Origin: a virus
Strand: one strand, 5' to 3'
Virus record (IMG/VR): IMGVR_UViG_3300037200_000151
Coordinates: 1 to 39,675 of that record
DNA length: 39,675 bases
Part shown: piece by piece, positions 6,177-30,289 of the stretch
Position numbering within the stretch: the stretch's first letter is position 1
How the letters are laid out: every line of letters starts with the position of its first letter
Notes under the pieces: model-generated
Database searches by the model: none
What the model was told of the DNA's origin: nothing
Seen by the model: only the letters and a program-made list of their open reading frames with translations
Program-made: the position numbers and the translations under genes

Positions 6177-7127
6177 TTAGGTGCTCGTGAAGTGAACGAC
6201 TCGGGCTTCACCAGGGTTTGCGGAATCAGCCCAGATCTGACCGAATTCCAAAATGCCGTACCAAGCCACCGACCGCGAACGGCCGAAGTCTTGGGGAATG
6301 GCTGCGCGAAGTTCAGGATCTTCAGCCGAGACGATTGCGACCGCGTCTGCTCCGAAGAACACTGCTTCACCGACCACACCGTTCAATCCGAGAGAACCGG
6401 AAAGGGCGCTAAGGTGATTGATTTCGATGAACCGAACGGACTCGAAACGACCGATTTCCGAATTGTATTTAGCTTCGGGATCGGTGTATCGGTGCCAAGG
6501 TTCCCAACCTGGATCCTGCATGATCCCTCGTTTGCCTTTCGTCGAGACGAGGCAAATATAATCGTCACCTTCATAAGCCGGAATGACGAGGTTCGAGAAC
6601 ATGTAATCGCGAATTTGCTCAACATGATAGGTGTTGAGGTTGGCGACTGCTTGACCAGAAGGAGTTCCATTGGTCGAAATCGACAAGGACGAAACGCCCG
6701 TTGCGACCGCTTTGATTTGCCCGGTCTTGAATGCGGCCGAAGCAGCATTGTCGAGAACGAGTTTCATTTGGTCTTTCAGGGTGCGTTGGATGATATTTTC
6801 AAGATCGAACTTGGAAAGATCTTTTGCCAAGCTCGTATAGGGAACCGACCGACCCCATTCAGAGACGGTGATCGCGATCGTGGTGATCACGAGATCGTCT
6901 TGCGGGATTTGTTGGTTCTCGGTGATTCTGCCATCAGACGGAACAGCGAGGTTAGAAACGCGGGTGATCGTGATCGATTCACCGGCATTCTTGCCATAGC
7001 CAGGTTCCGGAGAGACAAATTGCATGAATTTTGTTTCAGCAATTGCCGCTTGACGGAGCTGGGTGCTCATCGCGTGGCTTTTGTAGACCCCAGTCGGGGC
7101 GTCGTACGACCATGTAAACTGACTCAT
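6177..7127 (-). CDS. major capsid protein, N4-gp56-like (HK97 fold)
   Basis: This 316-residue protein starts at ATG 7127 behind AGGGAGG. Sequence features fit the N4-gp56 family of coat proteins. The N-terminal region includes FMQFVSPEPGYGKNAGESITITRVSNL, followed by VSEWGRSVPYTSLAKDLSKFDLE. The central segment contains VEQIRDYMFSNLVIPAYEGDDYICLVS, and the C-terminus has VVGEAVFFGADAVAIVSAEDPELRA and WYGILEFGQIW. The scaffold-coat order directly upstream supports the call. Length is near the lower end for the family (N4 gp56 is about 400 aa), so peripheral domains may be reduced. A large antisense ORF (6126-7130) covers the gene and is a shadow. Confidence 0.85.
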   Translation of the reverse strand: MSQFTWSYDAPTGVYKSHAMSTQLRQAAIAETKFMQFVSPEPGYGKNAGESITITRVSNLAVPSDGRITENQQIPQDDLVITTIAITVSEWGRSVPYTSLAKDLSKFDLENIIQRTLKDQMKLVLDNAASAAFKTGQIKAVATGVSSLSISTNGTPSGQAVANLNTYHVEQIRDYMFSNLVIPAYEGDDYICLVSTKGKRGIMQDPGWEPWHRYTDPEAKYNSEIGRFESVRFIEINHLSALSGSLGLNGVVGEAVFFGADAVAIVSAEDPELRAAIPQDFGRSRSVAWYGILEFGQIWADSANPGEARVVHFTST

Positions 7128-8187: not shown

Positions 8188-10161
8188 TTAAGTTCCCGGT
8201 CCATGCACATTTTGCTGAAGAAGTGCGTGTGGCATTGAGCTATTTGCCGCCATGTTTGCGACTTGAGGAATCTGAGACTGGGCATTCGGTCCAGTTCCAG
8301 GTTGTTGTCCGGGAGTCATTCCACTCGGAGGGCCTCCTGGCGCGCCCTGTCCACCACCTTGTTGAGCTTGTGCAGCTCCAGCGGCGGCCGCAGCGGCTTG
8401 CTGCTGCTGTTGCATTTGCTGCTTCTCTTGGTCAGTGAGTTCAAGCTTCTCGGTATCGATATCAAGTGCTTTCATGATTTCGCCCAAGAGAGAAGTGAAG
8501 GAATATTTTGCCTGGAACTGAGACATGAGAAGCGGAGATCCCGAGATCGTCTGAAGAAGTGAGGTTATTTTCCTGAAATCGTTCATGCGGCTCAAGAGCG
8601 TTGAAAGGCCGAAAACCTTGAACCTCACTCCATTTGCGATTTGCTGGAATCTCTTTTCCGGCTGAAGTGCCTTCGCAAGAGGAGCTTTGGCTCCCAAAAT
8701 ATTCGAGACGTCCGCTTCATCGAGGTCATCCATGAACTGAGCCATGGTGAGAAGTGCCTTCGTTAAAACACGTTCAAGGAAAGTTGTTTCGATGATTTTG
8801 ACTATGCCATTGAAAATCCCCGTTATTGATTGGTTGGCCGCGACGATCTCGGTCGCCTTTACCGCTCGTTGCGGAAGGTTTCCTTGAGTCGTTGAGTTTG
8901 AAAGCGAAGCCGACTGGAATTCCCTGTCGACGAGGTTGTACATATTCATGGTCTCGGGAGCTACGGCACCCGTGTCGACACGCTCAAGAACCTTGCCCAT
9001 CGGAGGAGCTGAGGCATTCAACAGAAGCGTCTCGCCGGCCATGATGCCATCTGAAACTTGGTTTGGATCCGATAGCCAGTTTTCGCGAAGCTGCTTGATT
9101 CCAAAAACGCTCATCATGCCGCCGTCGACCATAAGATTGTAAAGTTCGTTCAATGCCCGGTTGTGCATTGTCGGTGCATCCATGAGGGCTCGATGCCACA
9201 CGGAATGAGGCACGCGAATGATTGGACTCACCACGAACGGCGACTCCCCATGCCAGAAGGGATTGTCCCGAGGAGGACAAATCACCGTTCCGTTATCAGC
9301 GATCGTGCAAGTTCCGTGTTCCATGATCGGAAGGTGAGTGCCTGGATCCAAAATCGTTCCCCAAAGCTCATAGAGCCGCACTCGTTTCCTCGTTGCGTGC
9401 ATCGTGTTCGACTGGTTGGTCTCGCGCGCCTTGCGGCCCTCTTGCTCCATATCCATGTGGCCCTGGAGCTGCTCAATGGCCTGAATGTCATAAGTTCCAG
9501 GCTCTTTTTCGTTTACGCTTTTGGCGACCTCAAGAAGCCGATGATAGTCGATGTCGATGGCCTGGATCTCGTAAAGCCCATCCCCAGTGTCGTCCGGATA
9601 CCAATCTTCTTGGCGAACGAGATCGAGAACGAGTTCCCATGCATATTTATCATTGCGGAAAAGCTTCACTCGGCCCACGTTGTCACCCTGAAGAGCTTCG
9701 ATCTCAAACTTCGACTTCTTGCTCATTTGCCCATGGACCTTGCAGATCATGAGCGAGCCGAGCAGACCAAGCTTTAGGGCGTCGGCAATGAAGACCGAGG
9801 GGTCAATGCGATCGAGCTGGCGGTTTAAGAGTGATTTCCAGTCGCCGGCTTTTAAAACGACTGGATCGGCCTGTGTATCGACGCCGGGATTGTACTCAAT
9901 GTCGAACCATTCCTCGGTATCAACCAAGCCCTGTTGAAGAAATGAAACGATTTGCTCGACCGCCATTTGCTGCTTTCCGAGGAACTCGGTCGATTGCCCC
10001 TTTCTTTTGTGGGTCCAATCCGTGTTGAGGTGATAGCAATCAAAGTTCTGGCGATTCAGATCGATTCGACGGATCCGCGCTAGCTTGGCTTCGTTGACGT
10101 ATGAGAGAATCGCCTTTGCGGCTGGATCCATGTTCGGGCTTGAAGGGGCCGGGTTATCCAT
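8188..10161 (-). CDS. portal protein
   Basis: The protein has 657 residues, a usual size for podovirus portals. The N-terminus after about residue 20 is a helical DNA-packaging-type region (LARIRRIDLNRQNFDCYH, then KGQSTEFLGKQQMAVEQIVSFLQQGL). A wing/stem region with acidic patches follows. The C-terminus contains a Gln/Ala-rich low-complexity tract (QQQQQAAAAAAGAAQAQQ) and a Gly/Pro-rich tail. It lies between terminase and scaffold genes, the canonical position. The portal is the dodecameric channel through which TerL drives DNA. No clear Shine-Dalgarno precedes ATG 10161. Confidence 0.85.
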   Translation of the reverse strand: MDNPAPSSPNMDPAAKAILSYVNEAKLARIRRIDLNRQNFDCYHLNTDWTHKRKGQSTEFLGKQQMAVEQIVSFLQQGLVDTEEWFDIEYNPGVDTQADPVVLKAGDWKSLLNRQLDRIDPSVFIADALKLGLLGSLMICKVHGQMSKKSKFEIEALQGDNVGRVKLFRNDKYAWELVLDLVRQEDWYPDDTGDGLYEIQAIDIDYHRLLEVAKSVNEKEPGTYDIQAIEQLQGHMDMEQEGRKARETNQSNTMHATRKRVRLYELWGTILDPGTHLPIMEHGTCTIADNGTVICPPRDNPFWHGESPFVVSPIIRVPHSVWHRALMDAPTMHNRALNELYNLMVDGGMMSVFGIKQLRENWLSDPNQVSDGIMAGETLLLNASAPPMGKVLERVDTGAVAPETMNMYNLVDREFQSASLSNSTTQGNLPQRAVKATEIVAANQSITGIFNGIVKIIETTFLERVLTKALLTMAQFMDDLDEADVSNILGAKAPLAKALQPEKRFQQIANGVRFKVFGLSTLLSRMNDFRKITSLLQTISGSPLLMSQFQAKYSFTSLLGEIMKALDIDTEKLELTDQEKQQMQQQQQAAAAAAGAAQAQQGGGQGAPGGPPSGMTPGQQPGTGPNAQSQIPQVANMAANSSMPHALLQQNVHGPGT

Positions 10162-10173
10162 AATTAAACTGTA

Positions 10174-11028
10174 TCAGGGTTTTATGAAACCAAAAGCCGG
10201 TCTCGGCACCCTGACACTCCTATAGTTTTGACAGTTGGCGTTGACTCCCCACGCAAGATACTGAAGGGCATCATGAATGTGGGAGTAGATGTTTTTTATC
10301 GGGGACTGGCTCGTTTGCTCAATTTCGGCGGCTTTCTCGGGATATCTATAGCCCCCATCGAACCCCTTCGTGAGCACTGGGCATTCATTGATGTTGACCT
10401 GAAAGCCTGGATTTCCCCGGTACATCCTGCAAAGAAAGCTATCGACGGCTCCCCGTCGCGGTTCCCAGTTCACGGGTCCAGGGATCGGAAGAAAGCCCTT
10501 CGAATTCAGAATGCTCGCGCATGAATCCTCGTTCGTGTCTTTTCTGAAGTTCCCCGATGGATCGATAAAACAAAGCCAGTCTCGCCGGCGATCGTTCCAT
10601 TGTGGGAAAATCTGCTTCAGCTCGTGGACAACGTAGGTCGAGAAACGCTCGCACCCCATATTCACCGAGGTGAACTCTTTTAGAATATTGAGAGTACCCT
10701 CAACATACTGTCCAACCAAAGCAGCAGCACACAAACCAAAATCCCACCCAATAAGTAGGGGAAGGCCCAACTGAGGCTCCAGCGTAAAAGCCGACGCATG
10801 AATCTTCTTGTTCCAATCGCCATAAACCGGCATCCCCTGGTAGGTGACCCATTCGAGTTCATATTCCTGTTGAAACTTCCTTCGAGGCATCCCTGATTTT
10901 GCCGCATCCTTCCATTCTACAGATCTTTTCTCTTCATCGGCGGAATAATGAAGTTCAAAAACCGTGAAATGGTTTTTATCGTTCTCCCAGATTCGGACGC
11001 CCTGCATTGGTCTCTTTACTTCAGGCAT
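10174..11028 (-). CDS. terL: terminase large subunit, nuclease domain (separate ORF)
   Basis: This 284-residue ORF carries the RNase H-like nuclease half of TerL. Visible features are the first acidic motif LIGWDFG (Asp about 96), CFIDPSGNFR (Asp about 156), and the C-terminal HIHDALQYLAWG motif (Asp about 253), spaced as in TerL nucleases that cut concatemers at packaging start and end. The ATPase half is in the upstream ORF, which ends in TGA at 11023-11021. The two overlap by 8 bases, and this ORF is in the +1 frame relative to the ATPase ORF. ATG 11028 is the natural start, but the frame is open further upstream to about 11325. It could be expressed by coupled reinitiation or by +1 frameshifting at GCC-TGA. 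A sequencing error is also possible. Confidence 0.8.
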   Translation of the reverse strand: MPEVKRPMQGVRIWENDKNHFTVFELHYSADEEKRSVEWKDAAKSGMPRRKFQQEYELEWVTYQGMPVYGDWNKKIHASAFTLEPQLGLPLLIGWDFGLCAAALVGQYVEGTLNILKEFTSVNMGCERFSTYVVHELKQIFPQWNDRRRDWLCFIDPSGNFRKDTNEDSCASILNSKGFLPIPGPVNWEPRRGAVDSFLCRMYRGNPGFQVNINECPVLTKGFDGGYRYPEKAAEIEQTSQSPIKNIYSHIHDALQYLAWGVNANCQNYRSVRVPRPAFGFIKP

Positions 11029-11692
11029 CGCCGACCTCTTCAAAGGGCTCATCCAGCCTGTCAAAAACAAGGCGCTGAAAGAATCCTGGAGCGGGGCTTG
11101 AGATTCCGATAAACTTTCCCCCTTCGATTCCTTTCTTTCCTTCAATCGTCGGGAACGAAGCGGAGAACATCTGCTCGGCGTCATCCCAGAAGGCCATTTC
11201 ATCGGCGAGAATTCCTGAGAATGTAAATTGCCTGAGCTGATCGGCACCCGATGCAAATCCCGTAATCTGGGATGAGATTTCAGGGAACGTGAGCTTGCCG
11301 AAGATGGGTTCCCAGTTTGGAACAATGTCTTTTGGAATTACATCGTGGTTCATGTTTTCCAAGATGAATATCGCCCTCTTGATAAGCTCGTCTGAGTCGG
11401 TTTCCTTCTTGGAAACAAAGGCCCAGTTTCTCCCAGCGTGGAACATGGAGTCCCAAAGGGATAGCGCAATGCAGGTCCATGACATCGACATCCGTCTGGA
11501 CTTCGGAACAAGAATCAGACGCTTGCGCTGCCAGACGCGAACGAAGAGCTTCAAATATTCTCGATGAGTCGGGAAGTCCTTAATGGGGTTAGACCTATCG
11601 ACCTGATCTAAAGTCCTGCAGCCCTTCAAGAACTCCCATGGGTCATTTCTGATCTGACGGACTCGTTCGAGAGTGTCTCGATCCTGAATCAT
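11021..11692 (-). CDS. terL: terminase large subunit, ATPase domain (separate ORF)
   Basis: This 223-residue ORF carries the packaging ATPase half of TerL. It has a Walker A-like loop VPKSRRMSMSW (about residues 62-72), in the non-classical form common in phage TerL. Walker B is ILADEMAFW (about 161-169), with the catalytic Glu after Asp. A coupling motif GISSP (about 196-200) follows. It terminates at EEVGDA just where the inter-domain linker normally leads into the nuclease domain, which is encoded in the next ORF in a different frame. ATG 11692 overlaps the preceding stop (TGATG). Together the two ORFs make about 507 residues, a normal full TerL length. Confidence 0.85.
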   Translation of the reverse strand: MIQDRDTLERVRQIRNDPWEFLKGCRTLDQVDRSNPIKDFPTHREYLKLFVRVWQRKRLILVPKSRRMSMSWTCIALSLWDSMFHAGRNWAFVSKKETDSDELIKRAIFILENMNHDVIPKDIVPNWEPIFGKLTFPEISSQITGFASGADQLRQFTFSGILADEMAFWDDAEQMFSASFPTIEGKKGIEGGKFIGISSPAPGFFQRLVFDRLDEPFEEVGDA

Positions 11693-12114
11693 CAAATCAT
11701 CGAGGGGGGTTTTTTAAACGGCCTCTTTTTATTCGGCATTGTTCCAGCGGCTCCGATTCCAGAATCAATCTTCATTGCAGGCTTCTCGGGATCGCGAACG
11801 CCGAACTCAGAGAACGGCACCTTGACGCTGCTCGATTCGGAGGGCGAAGCCATGGAGGCAGAATATGAGGTCGGTCCCGGTTCTTCCGAGGGATCAATCT
11901 TCGGATTGCCAGAGCTTCCGGCGCTTGCCATTGGACTCCAGGTTGTTTCTCCGGGTTCGTCTGACATCGGAAGTTTGGGATTGCCGTTCTCCTTCGGCAT
12001 AGCCTCTACTCCCGTCCGGACCACCGGAGACGGTTTCGCGCCCTCGATTTCCCGATTCGTGAAGGCTTCGCTGCCGCCCATTCCGTTCTTGACCTGTTGC
12101 TTTACTGATCTCAT
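11692..12114 (-). CDS. disordered Pro/Ser/Glu-rich protein before terL
   Basis: This is a 140-residue protein of low complexity, rich in Pro, Ser, Gly and Glu, with no predicted folded core. A repeat-like pair appears as GETTWSPMASAGSSGNPKIDPSEEPG and GPTSYSASMASPSESS. The C-terminus is basic (NKKRPFKKPPSM). ATG 12114 follows GGGAGGAT, a good Shine-Dalgarno, and its TGA overlaps the terL ATPase start. It is probably translated as part of the terminase operon. The function is unknown. Disorder suggests a flexible partner-binding protein. Confidence 0.6.
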   Translation of the reverse strand: MRSVKQQVKNGMGGSEAFTNREIEGAKPSPVVRTGVEAMPKENGNPKLPMSDEPGETTWSPMASAGSSGNPKIDPSEEPGPTSYSASMASPSESSSVKVPFSEFGVRDPEKPAMKIDSGIGAAGTMPNKKRPFKKPPSMI

Positions 12115-14494: not shown

Positions 14495-14917
14495 CTATCC
14501 CTCCAGGTTAACGGTGAGATATCCGCTGCTAGCGGTTGAGGCATTTAGTGATCTGACGAAAAGATGGGTTCCCGAGGCAAGAGCCACGTCAACAACCTGC
14601 GGTCCTTCACCTTGGTTTGCGACCCAAGCACGCGTCACCGATCCTGAGTTTGGGCCAACGCCGAATTCGATTGGAATACCGATCGTGGAAGACATCTGAA
14701 CCTTTTGGATGAGCTTTGACATCGCAGCTCCGGAACCAACAGCGGCCCATGATCCGCCGGCAGCATTGATTTCAGTTACCGAGCAGTCATGAAACTCGCC
14801 CTTCTGAACCGAGATCCCGCTTGCGATTGAAACTGGAAGCGGATTCGGGCCGACAACTTGAACGTTTACCGAAGCGGCACTCGACGAACCAAGCGATCCA
14901 GTGACTCGTGATCTCAT
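14495..14917 (-). CDS. putative virion structural protein between terS and fibre
   Basis: This is a 140-residue Ser/Gly/Val-rich protein with a beta-type pattern ([42 protein letters not shown]) ending in [11 protein letters not shown]. It resembles small phage decoration or fibre-associated beta-sandwich proteins in composition but has no diagnostic motif. ATG 14917 overlaps the small-terminase stop by four bases (ATGA). No signal peptide is seen, unlike the next gene downstream, so the two are not obviously a secreted pair. Confidence 0.6.
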
Positions 14918-15507
14918 TTGATGTTTTCCTCTATCCAGCTATCCACTTTATCTCCCATTGGTTTTTCAAATTCTCCCTCGATCACTCCATTATTGACCGA
15001 TTTTGCGTCTAACTGAATGGCCCGATCGACCCTATTTTGCTCCAACTGGTCAAGTGCCTGGAACAAATCGCGAATCATTGAAGAACCAACGTCGATATTT
15101 TGACTCGGCCGACCCATGGCGCGGTCCATCACCTGCGACGCAGCCGAAAGACGAATCCCTTCTTTTGAGCTGCTCAGCATTAAATCCCGCACGGTTTCGA
15201 CCGCATCGGGCATTAAATCTTTGAAAAGGTTTTGGAAGTCACGGTTTGCATAGCGCTTTTGAATCTCGAAGGCCTGATCTTTGATGCGGCGAAGGCCGAG
15301 GACCTTCTGCACTTCTTCAAAGGAAAGGCCGAGCATCGTGGCAATTTGGGGAGCTTCAGCTCCGCCGGCTCTTAAGTGGGCGATGGCTCGATAATGAAGG
15401 GGATCATTAAAGACTTGGGCTTTGACGGCATCCTGGATCGTCTCCATGGCGTCGCAGGCCGAATCAACGGGACGCTTGATCTCGGAAGCGTCAAAATTAT
15501 CCGACAT
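14914..15507 (-). CDS. terS: terminase small subunit
   Basis: The 197-residue protein contains a helix-turn-helix segment, APQIATMLGLSFEEVQKVLG (about 53-72). A central helical oligomerisation region follows (DLMPDAVETVRDLM). The sequence IRLSAASQVMDRAMGRPSQ (about 118-136) closely follows the 'R..AA..lldr.lGkp.q' signature common in phage packaging small subunits. The acidic C-terminus ([24 protein letters not shown]) may contact the large subunit. It would bind the packaging site and present DNA to TerL. ATG 15507 lies 10 bases after GGGGAGGG. It is separated from terL by three virion-type genes, which is not the textbook adjacency. Confidence 0.75.
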   Translation of the reverse strand: MSDNFDASEIKRPVDSACDAMETIQDAVKAQVFNDPLHYRAIAHLRAGGAEAPQIATMLGLSFEEVQKVLGLRRIKDQAFEIQKRYANRDFQNLFKDLMPDAVETVRDLMLSSSKEGIRLSAASQVMDRAMGRPSQNIDVGSSMIRDLFQALDQLEQNRVDRAIQLDAKSVNNGVIEGEFEKPMGDKVDSWIEENIK

Positions 15508-20408: not shown

Positions 20409-21119
20409 TCAGGGGAGAATCGAAGCCTTGTTGAAAGCAACGAGATCATCGGGCGAGCCGTAGAACCATTCCGCATCCATTTCACCTGACTGTGTGCTCG
20501 ACACACCCGGCACGGGATAGTTTCCGCTGAACTGCCAGAAGGTTCTTTTCGTCCACGGCGGAGGAGTCTTCACTTCAGACTCAGGGGCGTACCATGCCAA
20601 AAGGAAGGGATACCTTGCGAGGTGAACCATTACGCCCGGCTCATTCTCTGCGACTTGCAGCATCGTGTAGTAACCGCCGTAAAGAACCGGAAGCCTCTTC
20701 AGCCGAGCCTCGATCGTCTGGAGCATAAGGAGCCCCTTTGCTCCGTCGCCCATCACAACTCCACGGGTTTCGGGATCGTATTCCCAGTCAAACATCGGGC
20801 AGAAGTCCAGGGGATCGCTGGGACTCAGCCCACCCTGACTCTCGACGAGATCGCAAAAAGTGTTCGCTTGGGCGACCGGGTCCTGATCAAACATCGGGAA
20901 ATGGTAGGGGCCGGCCATGATCCAAGCAGCTTTTATCGCGGTTCTAAAGGCCAAGTATTGTGTTCCACCAAGATCCTGACGGCTGCCCTGGCAGACCTTG
21001 ACCCAACAAGCGGCCATGCCGAAAGCTTTGGCTTTGGGCCAACTGTCGACGATGTCACCGTCGTAAACGTCGCCAACTAGGGTTCTCGTTTGCGGACCTG
21101 AATCTCCAATTGAAAGCAT
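20409..21119 (-). CDS. endolysin, glycoside hydrolase family 25 (lysozyme)
   Basis: The 236-residue protein has a full GH25 plan. The N-terminal VGDVYDGDIVDSW contains Asp 17 on the first strand, followed by WVKVCQG and AGPYHF. The catalytic pair is MFDWEYDP (Asp 111/Glu 113), then PVLYGGYYTML and LLAWYAPE. The C-terminal TFWQFSGN ... DAEWFYGSPDDL motif follows. It would cleave the beta-1,4 bond between N-acetylmuramic acid and N-acetylglucosamine at host lysis. No signal peptide or cell-wall-binding repeat is visible, so export likely needs a holin. The start is ATG 21119 behind AGGAGG, with an inverted-repeat copy (21145-21170) just upstream. Confidence 0.85.
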   Translation of the reverse strand: MLSIGDSGPQTRTLVGDVYDGDIVDSWPKAKAFGMAACWVKVCQGSRQDLGGTQYLAFRTAIKAAWIMAGPYHFPMFDQDPVAQANTFCDLVESQGGLSPSDPLDFCPMFDWEYDPETRGVVMGDGAKGLLMLQTIEARLKRLPVLYGGYYTMLQVAENEPGVMVHLARYPFLLAWYAPESEVKTPPPWTKRTFWQFSGNYPVPGVSSTQSGEMDAEWFYGSPDDLVAFNKASILP

Positions 21120-21170: not shown

Positions 21171-21935
21171 TTAAAGAAGTTTCGCATCGCCTATCCCCAA
21201 CCTTTCTTCGGCAATTTTGAAATACTTTGCATCTTTTTCGATGCCGATAAATTTTCTGTTGAGATTTTTACAGGCAACTCCAGTTGAGCCGCCTCCCATT
21301 GTGAAGTCGAGGACTGTTTCGCCCTCAATCGTGTAAGTTTTAATTAGGTATTCGAGAAGTGCAACGGGCTTTTGAGTGGGGTGATACCTGTTTGAACCTC
21401 GTTCACTTTTAAAATCAATTATCATACAGGGATTTTTCAATAAAGCATCGTAATTGTTTGGATCAATTTTGCCGGAAGTTGTAGTTGATATATTTCCAGC
21501 CGAACACAAAAAGGGCTTACCGGATTTTTGTCCCGCCAAAACTCTATCAATACCTTTTTGATCCCTTTTAATTTTTTGCCCGTAAAATGATGGGGGCTTT
21601 AGATAGAACGTAGATATTAACTCATGGTATTTTAGAGGCATAAATTTAGCACAAGCGATGTTTGAGGGGACCGTTTTTCTCCATATCCAATCATATTTAA
21701 ACTCTTTGATGTTGCTCATTCTAAGATGCGAACTAAACGGCTCACTTCCGAACAAACAGATAGCGGCATTGTCTTTACGAACACGTTTCAACTCTTTCCA
21801 CATCGGCTCAAACGGAACAACCGAGTCCCACTTGCACGCGGTGGTCCCATAAGGGGGGTCTGTTAAAACCATATCAATAGAACCGTCTTTTAGTGTTCGC
21901 ATAACCTCCAAGCAATCGCCCTCGTAAATCTCCAT
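21171..21935 (-). CDS. DNA adenine-N6 or cytosine-N4 methyltransferase (beta class)
   Basis: The 254-residue protein has the catalytic motif DPPY at residues 26-29. The SAM-binding segment VLDFTMGGGSTGVA (about 208-221) lies near the C-terminus, an order that defines beta-class amino-methyltransferases. HPTQKP precedes the SAM motif, also typical. It would methylate an amino group in a specific DNA sequence. No restriction partner is seen, so an orphan, restriction-evasion or regulatory role is likely. The coding sequence is visibly more AT-rich than its neighbours and is bracketed by an inverted repeat pair (21145-21170, 21960-21985), suggesting recent acquisition. The start is ATG 21935 with a weak RBS. 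Confidence 0.85.
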   Translation of the reverse strand: MEIYEGDCLEVMRTLKDGSIDMVLTDPPYGTTACKWDSVVPFEPMWKELKRVRKDNAAICLFGSEPFSSHLRMSNIKEFKYDWIWRKTVPSNIACAKFMPLKYHELISTFYLKPPSFYGQKIKRDQKGIDRVLAGQKSGKPFLCSAGNISTTTSGKIDPNNYDALLKNPCMIIDFKSERGSNRYHPTQKPVALLEYLIKTYTIEGETVLDFTMGGGSTGVACKNLNRKFIGIEKDAKYFKIAEERLGIGDAKLL

Positions 21936-29488: not shown

Positions 29489-30289
29489 GTGAAAAAATTA
29501 ACTTTAAACGAAGCAATCGAGCTTCACGCTGCTAAGCAATTGGTTGGCGTCTTCGAGATGACAAACCAAGAGTACCATGCAGCGCCTGGACTCTCGAAGT
29601 CGGCCTTGGACAATATCAACGAAAGCCCGTTCTATTATAAGTGGAAACTCGACAATCCGGACGATTTGTCCGAAGCGCTGATTTTTGGCTCGGCTTATCA
29701 TGCCAAAGTCTTGGAACCGCATTTGTTTCCAATCCTGTTTTTCCCGACCTCAACACAACCTCGCGCGCCGAAGCGCGATGCCCTAGGTCGAGCGCCGTTA
29801 TCTGAAGCCAACTCGGACAAAATAGATGCCATGGTCAAGCGCCTTAAGTCTTTACCGGGAGCCTCAAAGCTCATTGTGGGCCAACCCGAACTCTGCTTTT
29901 TCTGGACTGATATTGAGACCGGCATCCAATGCAAATGCAAAATCGACGTGCTTTCGCCGGCAGGTGTGGTTGTGGATCTCAAAACTTGCCAAGACGCGAG
30001 CCCTAAGAAGTTCTCGGCCACGATTCTTGACCGCCGCTACCAAGTTCAGGGAGCATGGATACTTGACGGCATTCGGAAAGCCGTTGAACAATCCGGAATC
30101 AGCTTTCCAATCCCCGACAGCTTCATTTTGCTAGCCCAAGAGAAGTCTGAACCTTTCCGCGTCGCCCAAGGTGAAGAGATGTACCGAAAGGACCTTGAAA
30201 CCTACGCTGAATGCGTGACCAAGAACGAATGGCCGGACTATCCCGACCAAGTCGTGGACATCGAATGCCCGATCTGGAGCTTCAAATGA
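29489..30289 (+). CDS. RecE-like PD-(D/E)XK 5'-3' exonuclease
   Basis: The 266-residue protein starts at GTG 29489 behind GAAAGGA. The family signature NQEYHAAPGLSKSALDNINESPFYY is followed by GSAYHAKVLEP (His 71) and QPELCFFW (Glu 134). CKIDVLSPAGVVVDLKTCQ contains the catalytic Asp 153 and Asp 163/Lys 165, and RRYQVQGAWILDGI supplies the Gln-x-x helix. This is the RecE C-terminal/DUF3799-type exonuclease that resects duplex DNA to leave 3' single strands. The following gene of the recombination module probably anneals them. Confidence 0.85.
   Translation: MKKLTLNEAIELHAAKQLVGVFEMTNQEYHAAPGLSKSALDNINESPFYYKWKLDNPDDLSEALIFGSAYHAKVLEPHLFPILFFPTSTQPRAPKRDALGRAPLSEANSDKIDAMVKRLKSLPGASKLIVGQPELCFFWTDIETGIQCKCKIDVLSPAGVVVDLKTCQDASPKKFSATILDRRYQVQGAWILDGIRKAVEQSGISFPIPDSFILLAQEKSEPFRVAQGEEMYRKDLETYAECVTKNEWPDYPDQVVDIECPIWSFK

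Follow-up and report, generated by a model that had tools for sequence, protein, structure and literature searches.

The window analysed here is the whole of one metagenome-type virus record, 39,675 bases long, and on its minus strand the large terminase subunit (TerL) is represented by two open reading frames, one carrying the ATPase core and the other a lid segment followed by an RNase H-type nuclease (Table 1). As reported in a preliminary description of this sequence, which named no strand, the two frames overlap by eight bases in a +1 relation, the overlap holding both the ATPase stop codon and the nuclease start codon. The portal gene starts 12 bases past the nuclease stop, and the ATPase start codon shares a base with the stop codon of the upstream ORF, so the two halves lie within a tightly packed gene row. 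Both are assigned to the terminase large subunit by PHROGs (ATPase ORF, phrog_2, E 4.1e-12; nuclease ORF, phrog_10250, E 1.4e-9), and a Pfam search with each half gave no family at E 0.1. The portal assignment comes from phrog_1216 (E 1.3e-11) and a match to SU10_portal (E 1.8e-6) that is under the curated cut-off; the upstream ORF has no family match in Pfam or PHROGs. The location beside portal and head genes that is expected of TerL is thus seen here, with the portal gene adjoining and the major capsid gene nearby. A tail-fibre-like gene of 783 aa stands between the ATPase gene and a likely small terminase gene (phrog_2538, E 1.6e-5), and elsewhere the window encodes a DNA methylase, an endolysin and a PDDEXK-like protein.

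Table 1. Coordinates of features in the window and in related loci
Feature	Locus	Coordinates	Strand	Details
TerL ATPase-core ORF	window	11021..11692	-	ATG 11692, TGA 11023-11021, 223 aa
TerL lid and RNase H-type nuclease ORF	window	10174..11028	-	ATG 11028, TGA 10176-10174, 284 aa
Lid (ATPase subdomain II) part	window	10850..11028	-	nuclease ORF residues ~1-60; approximate boundary
Overlap ATGCCTGA, 8 bases	window	11021..11028	-	nuclease start and ATPase stop, +1 relation
Shine-Dalgarno-like GAGG	window	11035..11038	-	6 nt 5' of nuclease ATG
Deviant Walker A	window	11479-11502	-	
Portal gene	window	8188..10161	-	next after nuclease; ATG 10161
Upstream ORF	window	11692..12114	-	TGATG, one base common to its TGA and the ATPase ATG
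Major capsid gene	window	6177-7127		
Likely small terminase gene	window	14914-15507	-	
GH25 lysozyme-type endolysin	window	20409-21119	-	
DNA methylase	window	21171-21935	-	N6_N4_Mtase
PDDEXK-like protein	window	29489-30289	+	DUF3799
Spacer between halves	L014	5624-5803		178 nt; inverted repeat (by eye)
Spacer between halves	L096	1561-2139		small ORFs
Spacer between halves	L097	2981-3496		small ORFs
Spacer between halves	L099	2205-2650		small ORFs
Region with gap after ATPase match	L166	6621-7096		~300 nt, short nuclease match
Region with gap after ATPase match	L168	3002-3553		~300 nt, short nuclease match
Region with intein-like insert	L045	1513-3372		split locus
Region with intein-like insert	L057	4959-7493		fused locus
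Region with intein-like insert	L076	146-2713		fused locus
Region with intein-like insert	L081	3-2561		fused locus

The preliminary description held that both halves keep their motifs, and this is confirmed. The ATPase ORF has the elements of an ASCE-type ATPase, with a Walker A-like segment of deviant form (KSRRMSMSW, residues 64-72), a Walker B (ILADEMAF, Asp164-Glu165) and a C-motif (SSPAP, Ser198-Ser199). The nuclease ORF has the three acidic residues of an RNase H/RuvC-like nuclease, Asp96 (WDFG), Asp156 (FIDPSG) and Asp253 (SHIHDALQ).

To place the break we used AlphaFold models of the single chains, which describe the fold of each chain and do not test binding between them. Mean pLDDT is 93.8 for the ATPase model and 89.1 for the nuclease model, and residues 1-60 of the nuclease ORF are modelled as strands with a pair of helices, at pLDDT 81-92. 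Residues 3-211 of the ATPase match T4 gp17 residues 102-300 (2o0j, Z 21.7, rmsd 2.3 over 196 residues), although the alignment end varies between rows and the last T4 row for this half (3cpe) spans 101-365. Nuclease residues 66-269 match T4 gp17 residues 361-561 (3cpe, Z 14.3, rmsd 3.1, 170 residues), whereas a longer segment, residues 1-265, matches residues 164-417 of the D6E large terminase (5oe8, Z 20.5, rmsd 5.0, 230 residues); the nuclease model also matches the P22 nuclease 4dkw (Z 17.2) and G20c 5m1f (Z 15.3). These matches come from the fold search; a profile search of the PDB returned nothing for the nuclease half. The fold and the order of the two halves are therefore those of T4 gp17 and the D6E large terminase, but in both of those the domains form one polypeptide. 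We take residues ~1-60 of the nuclease ORF to be the lid, and we also assume the T4 subdomain borders. Because these ~60 residues precede the nuclease domain and sit on the nuclease chain, the models place the break between the ATPase core and the lid, ~60 residues before the hinge and nuclease; its earlier placement exactly in the inter-domain linker is off by that distance. As the lid goes with the nuclease, the two chains are presumably joined non-covalently.

Relatives were collected in three viral_contigs scans and one genome_contigs scan, giving 170 loci (a further scan found none); of 137 relatives in the A1 scan the best 80 were kept, and of at least 594 in the A2 scan likewise the best 80. 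Profiles of both halves were run on 172 records. An ATPase match is present in 104 of these. Of the 68 lacking one on the strand given, 67 are distant nuclease loci (L098, L100-L165) and the last, L001, is the window itself. Counts of split and fused genes cover the records with an ATPase match, the distant nuclease loci lying outside them, and removal of L166 (no scored nuclease) and 17 duplicates leaves 86 distinct loci with both halves. Among the matches listed, 23 of the 86 (window included) are split and 63 are fused, so that in the window and 22 other loci the two domains are not on the one polypeptide usual for TerL. All of the splits break at one and the same connector, and comparison with related phages, which the preliminary description had proposed, finds the split recurring there, which is more than chance. 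Twenty-one of the 23 are clean; the other two, L168 with its truncated nuclease and L032 with no start codon ahead of the ATPase stop, may reflect errors or decay. Downstream, 18 of the 22 other split loci and 55 of the 63 fused loci have a portal homologue within 1.5 kb. We note that 41 phage records have a match to the nuclease half, and that in each of the ten examined a single annotated CDS covers the match.

Deep alignments were made with 67 of the 86 rows (21 split and 46 fused), leaving out L045, L168 and near-copies. Asp96, Asp156 and Asp253 are present in 67 of 67 aligned rows, and K64, R66, R67, E165, S198, D96, D156 and D253 are identical in all 21 split rows. Position 164 of Walker B is Asp in 19 split rows and Thr in two (44 and two, respectively, in fused rows), and position 199 is Ser in 20 split rows and Thr in one. 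The Walker A deviation is shared by all of the relatives. Lys64 is invariant and stands six residues ahead of the place of the P-loop lysine of T4, where the window has Met; T4 has the canonical lysine there, in contrast to the Met, Leu, Ile or Val of most rows of this family, and split rows resemble fused rows in this respect. Deviant Walker A motifs occur in terminases. Intein-like inserts of ~300 residues, judged from ORF length and the L045 sequence, are located in the nuclease near the first catalytic Asp in one split relative (L045) and three fused ones.

The unbroken gene in 63 of the 86 loci is what would be expected if a single gene in the window had been broken by a recent mutation or by a fault of sequencing or assembly, and L032 and L168 may be such cases. 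We nonetheless consider this very unlikely for the window, as 22 other loci, drawn from many metagenomes, are broken at the one connector and have start codons of their own that are often preceded by a Shine-Dalgarno-like motif, the sister loci L002 and L003 have different junction frames, and all key catalytic positions are kept. The preliminary description, which listed an assembly error among its options, regarded unbroken relatives as evidence against a natural split; such relatives do exist, but they do not refute it because the split also recurs.

The junctions vary in layout. The open frames overlap in 18 splits, ten in a +1 and eight in a -1 relation, and are apart in five (L014, 155 nt; L096, 545 nt; L097, 509 nt; L099, 439 nt; L168, 300 nt). 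An ATG in the nuclease frame lies 3-25 nt ahead of the end of the ATPase stop in 16 of the 18 overlapping splits: the junction is ATGA in seven (L002, L010, L013, L033, L045, L053 and L066) and ATGnnTGA in four (the window, L008, L025 and L069), and five have overlaps of 11-23 nt (L003, L004, L006, L016 and L170). The junction in L167 is GTGA, and L032 is the one without a start. In a control set of 387 virtual off-frame stops in fused connectors, which are not mutually independent, 45 have such an ATG. An ATG at -10 in L014, which is outside the 18, precedes the gap and is not the L014 start. A Shine-Dalgarno-like 4-mer stands ahead of 13 of 21 split starts and is absent from the other eight, compared with 1149 of 6387 control positions. 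These junctions fit separately started genes rather than a ribosomal shift or random error.

A programmed +1 shift at GCC-TGA, yielding a one-chain TerL, was suggested in the preliminary description, and in the window the nuclease frame is indeed +1 and stays open over at least 60 nt ahead of the ATPase stop. However, the relation is +1 in ten and -1 in eight of the 18 overlapping splits, the last sense codon before the stop varies (GCC, GGC, GAA, TCG, ACA, AAA and others), a slippery heptamer is present in just one of the eight -1 cases, and no shift can bridge the 155-545 nt between the open frames of the five separated splits. Neither shift site nor frame is conserved in the relatives. With separate ATGs in 16 of 18 overlapping splits as well, a programmed shift is not supported and is, in our estimation, highly improbable.

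Rejoining of the halves by an intron or intein has precedent, as introns or inteins in TerL have been reported for Jug phages (PMC12363816) and Mic1 (PMC7156551). In those phages the TerL coding sequence is likewise interrupted, but a single protein is restored by splicing, whereas the window ORFs overlap, leaving no room for an intron, and nothing is spliced. A search of the window and 13 loci gave no intron family at gathering score. Moreover, the connector between the anchors PGFF and xG is 24-40 residues long in fused proteins (median 28, 46 rows), and the tail and head of the split proteins together amount to 17-43 residues (median 27.5, 20 rows), which equals the fused linker length with no docking extension added. 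We give an intron or intein virtually no credence.

Among the separated splits, the nuclease of L014 has its own Shine-Dalgarno-like AGGAG. The spacers of L096, L097 and L099 are 445-578 nt long, with no Rfam match in these three, and indicate that other genes can stand between the halves. L166 and L168 are two Selenomonadales MAG contigs whose gaps may reflect decay, insertion or an assembly break. They offer some support for the view that the window, too, holds a decaying terminase in a defective element, yet the window halves are full length, have intact active sites and lie ahead of portal and capsid genes, and we regard this as exceedingly unlikely.

As judged from the sequences, the phylogenies show more than one origin of the split. 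Change counts, which do not tell gain from loss, are 12 in a quick tree of the 86 rows (at least seven forced by starred branches), nine in a careful tree of 59 of the 86 rows (at least five forced) and seven in the quick tree without L032 (at least three forced), and trees of the ATPase alone and the nuclease alone give nine and 11 changes (at least four forced in each). A single origin, with 15 split rows as one clade (L032 left out), was rejected, with lnL lower by 141 and p-AU 1.9e-6. Fused L005 and split L013 are a sister pair, 67% identical and starred in both the careful tree and the single-clade test tree; the pair of split L016 and fused L022 is starred only in the latter. The sister of the window in the careful tree is L008, which is also split (99/85), and in the single-clade test tree the window is in no starred set. 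The identities of the two halves correlate across pairs (r 0.60, 1711 pairs), and no clear swap of domains between halves was seen in these pairwise identities.

Separate genes for the ATPase and nuclease of one phage are also found in Arthrobacter phages of clusters AY and AT, and the window shares this arrangement. A two-gene TerL has been described for cluster AY phages (PMC12820723), and two genes related to TerL for KellEzio (PMC5513430). The preliminary remark that a two-polypeptide TerL would be unusual without an intron is fair, but publications on Arthrobacter phages already describe a two-gene TerL, and the kind is therefore known. BillyTP (PP978841) and BlueShadow of cluster AY, a cluster of isolated phages, resemble the window in having consecutive, overlapping ATPase and nuclease genes before the portal gene (overlap 1663-1679 in BillyTP). 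BillyTP differs in its TerL lineage (phrog_9) and in the sizes of its nuclease ORF (198 aa) and ATPase (359 aa); judged by eye, the nuclease ORF has little sequence ahead of its first likely catalytic Asp, which suggests that the lid has stayed with the ATPase and that the hinge is the site of the break. In KellEzio (cluster AT, KU647626) genes 4 and 10 are annotated in GenBank as 'terminase large subunit, ATPase domain' and 'nuclease domain', but five genes stand between them, the lineage is phrog_38, and the break is near or inside the lid. New here are a break between core and lid, an overlap that probably couples translation, and a change that has happened repeatedly in a single clade; no description of the core-lid break or its recurrence was found in the accessible parts of the literature searched for split TerL.

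We therefore propose that the large terminase of this phage is very probably encoded as two proteins, an ATPase core and a lid-hinge-nuclease; the recurrent split in relatives supports the natural two-subunit terminase that was among the initial suggestions. The ATPase core would be made first, and ribosomes ending at its stop codon would restart at the overlapping ATG to produce the lid-nuclease. Such coupled translation is most likely, and termination-reinitiation would give near-equal amounts of the two proteins. The chains would then bind without a covalent link through the core-lid surface, a contact that is inside the protein in a one-chain TerL, and together would form the usual packaging ring at the portal. 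In T4 gp17, the ATPase and nuclease domains no longer translocated DNA once they were separate and lacked the hinge (PMC9958956); the cut there was at another place, and the result is not directly contradicted because the hinge here stays intact on the nuclease chain. A further and distinctly speculative reading is that the motor is a ring of ATPase cores and a ring of lid-nucleases joined by a non-covalent, force-transmitting core-lid contact, that the clade has repeatedly swapped between one-chain and two-chain forms, and that the lid-nuclease, being free, could leave the motor or be exchanged between the packaging and cutting stages.

In the textbook TerL, ATP hydrolysis is coupled to DNA movement via one chain. 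Repeated natural breaks at the core-lid connector show covalent links that the motor seems able to spare, and sister pairs such as fused L005 and split L013 allow this to be tested directly. When such phages are annotated, a short 'half' terminase should be labelled neither a fragment nor an error nor a pseudogene.
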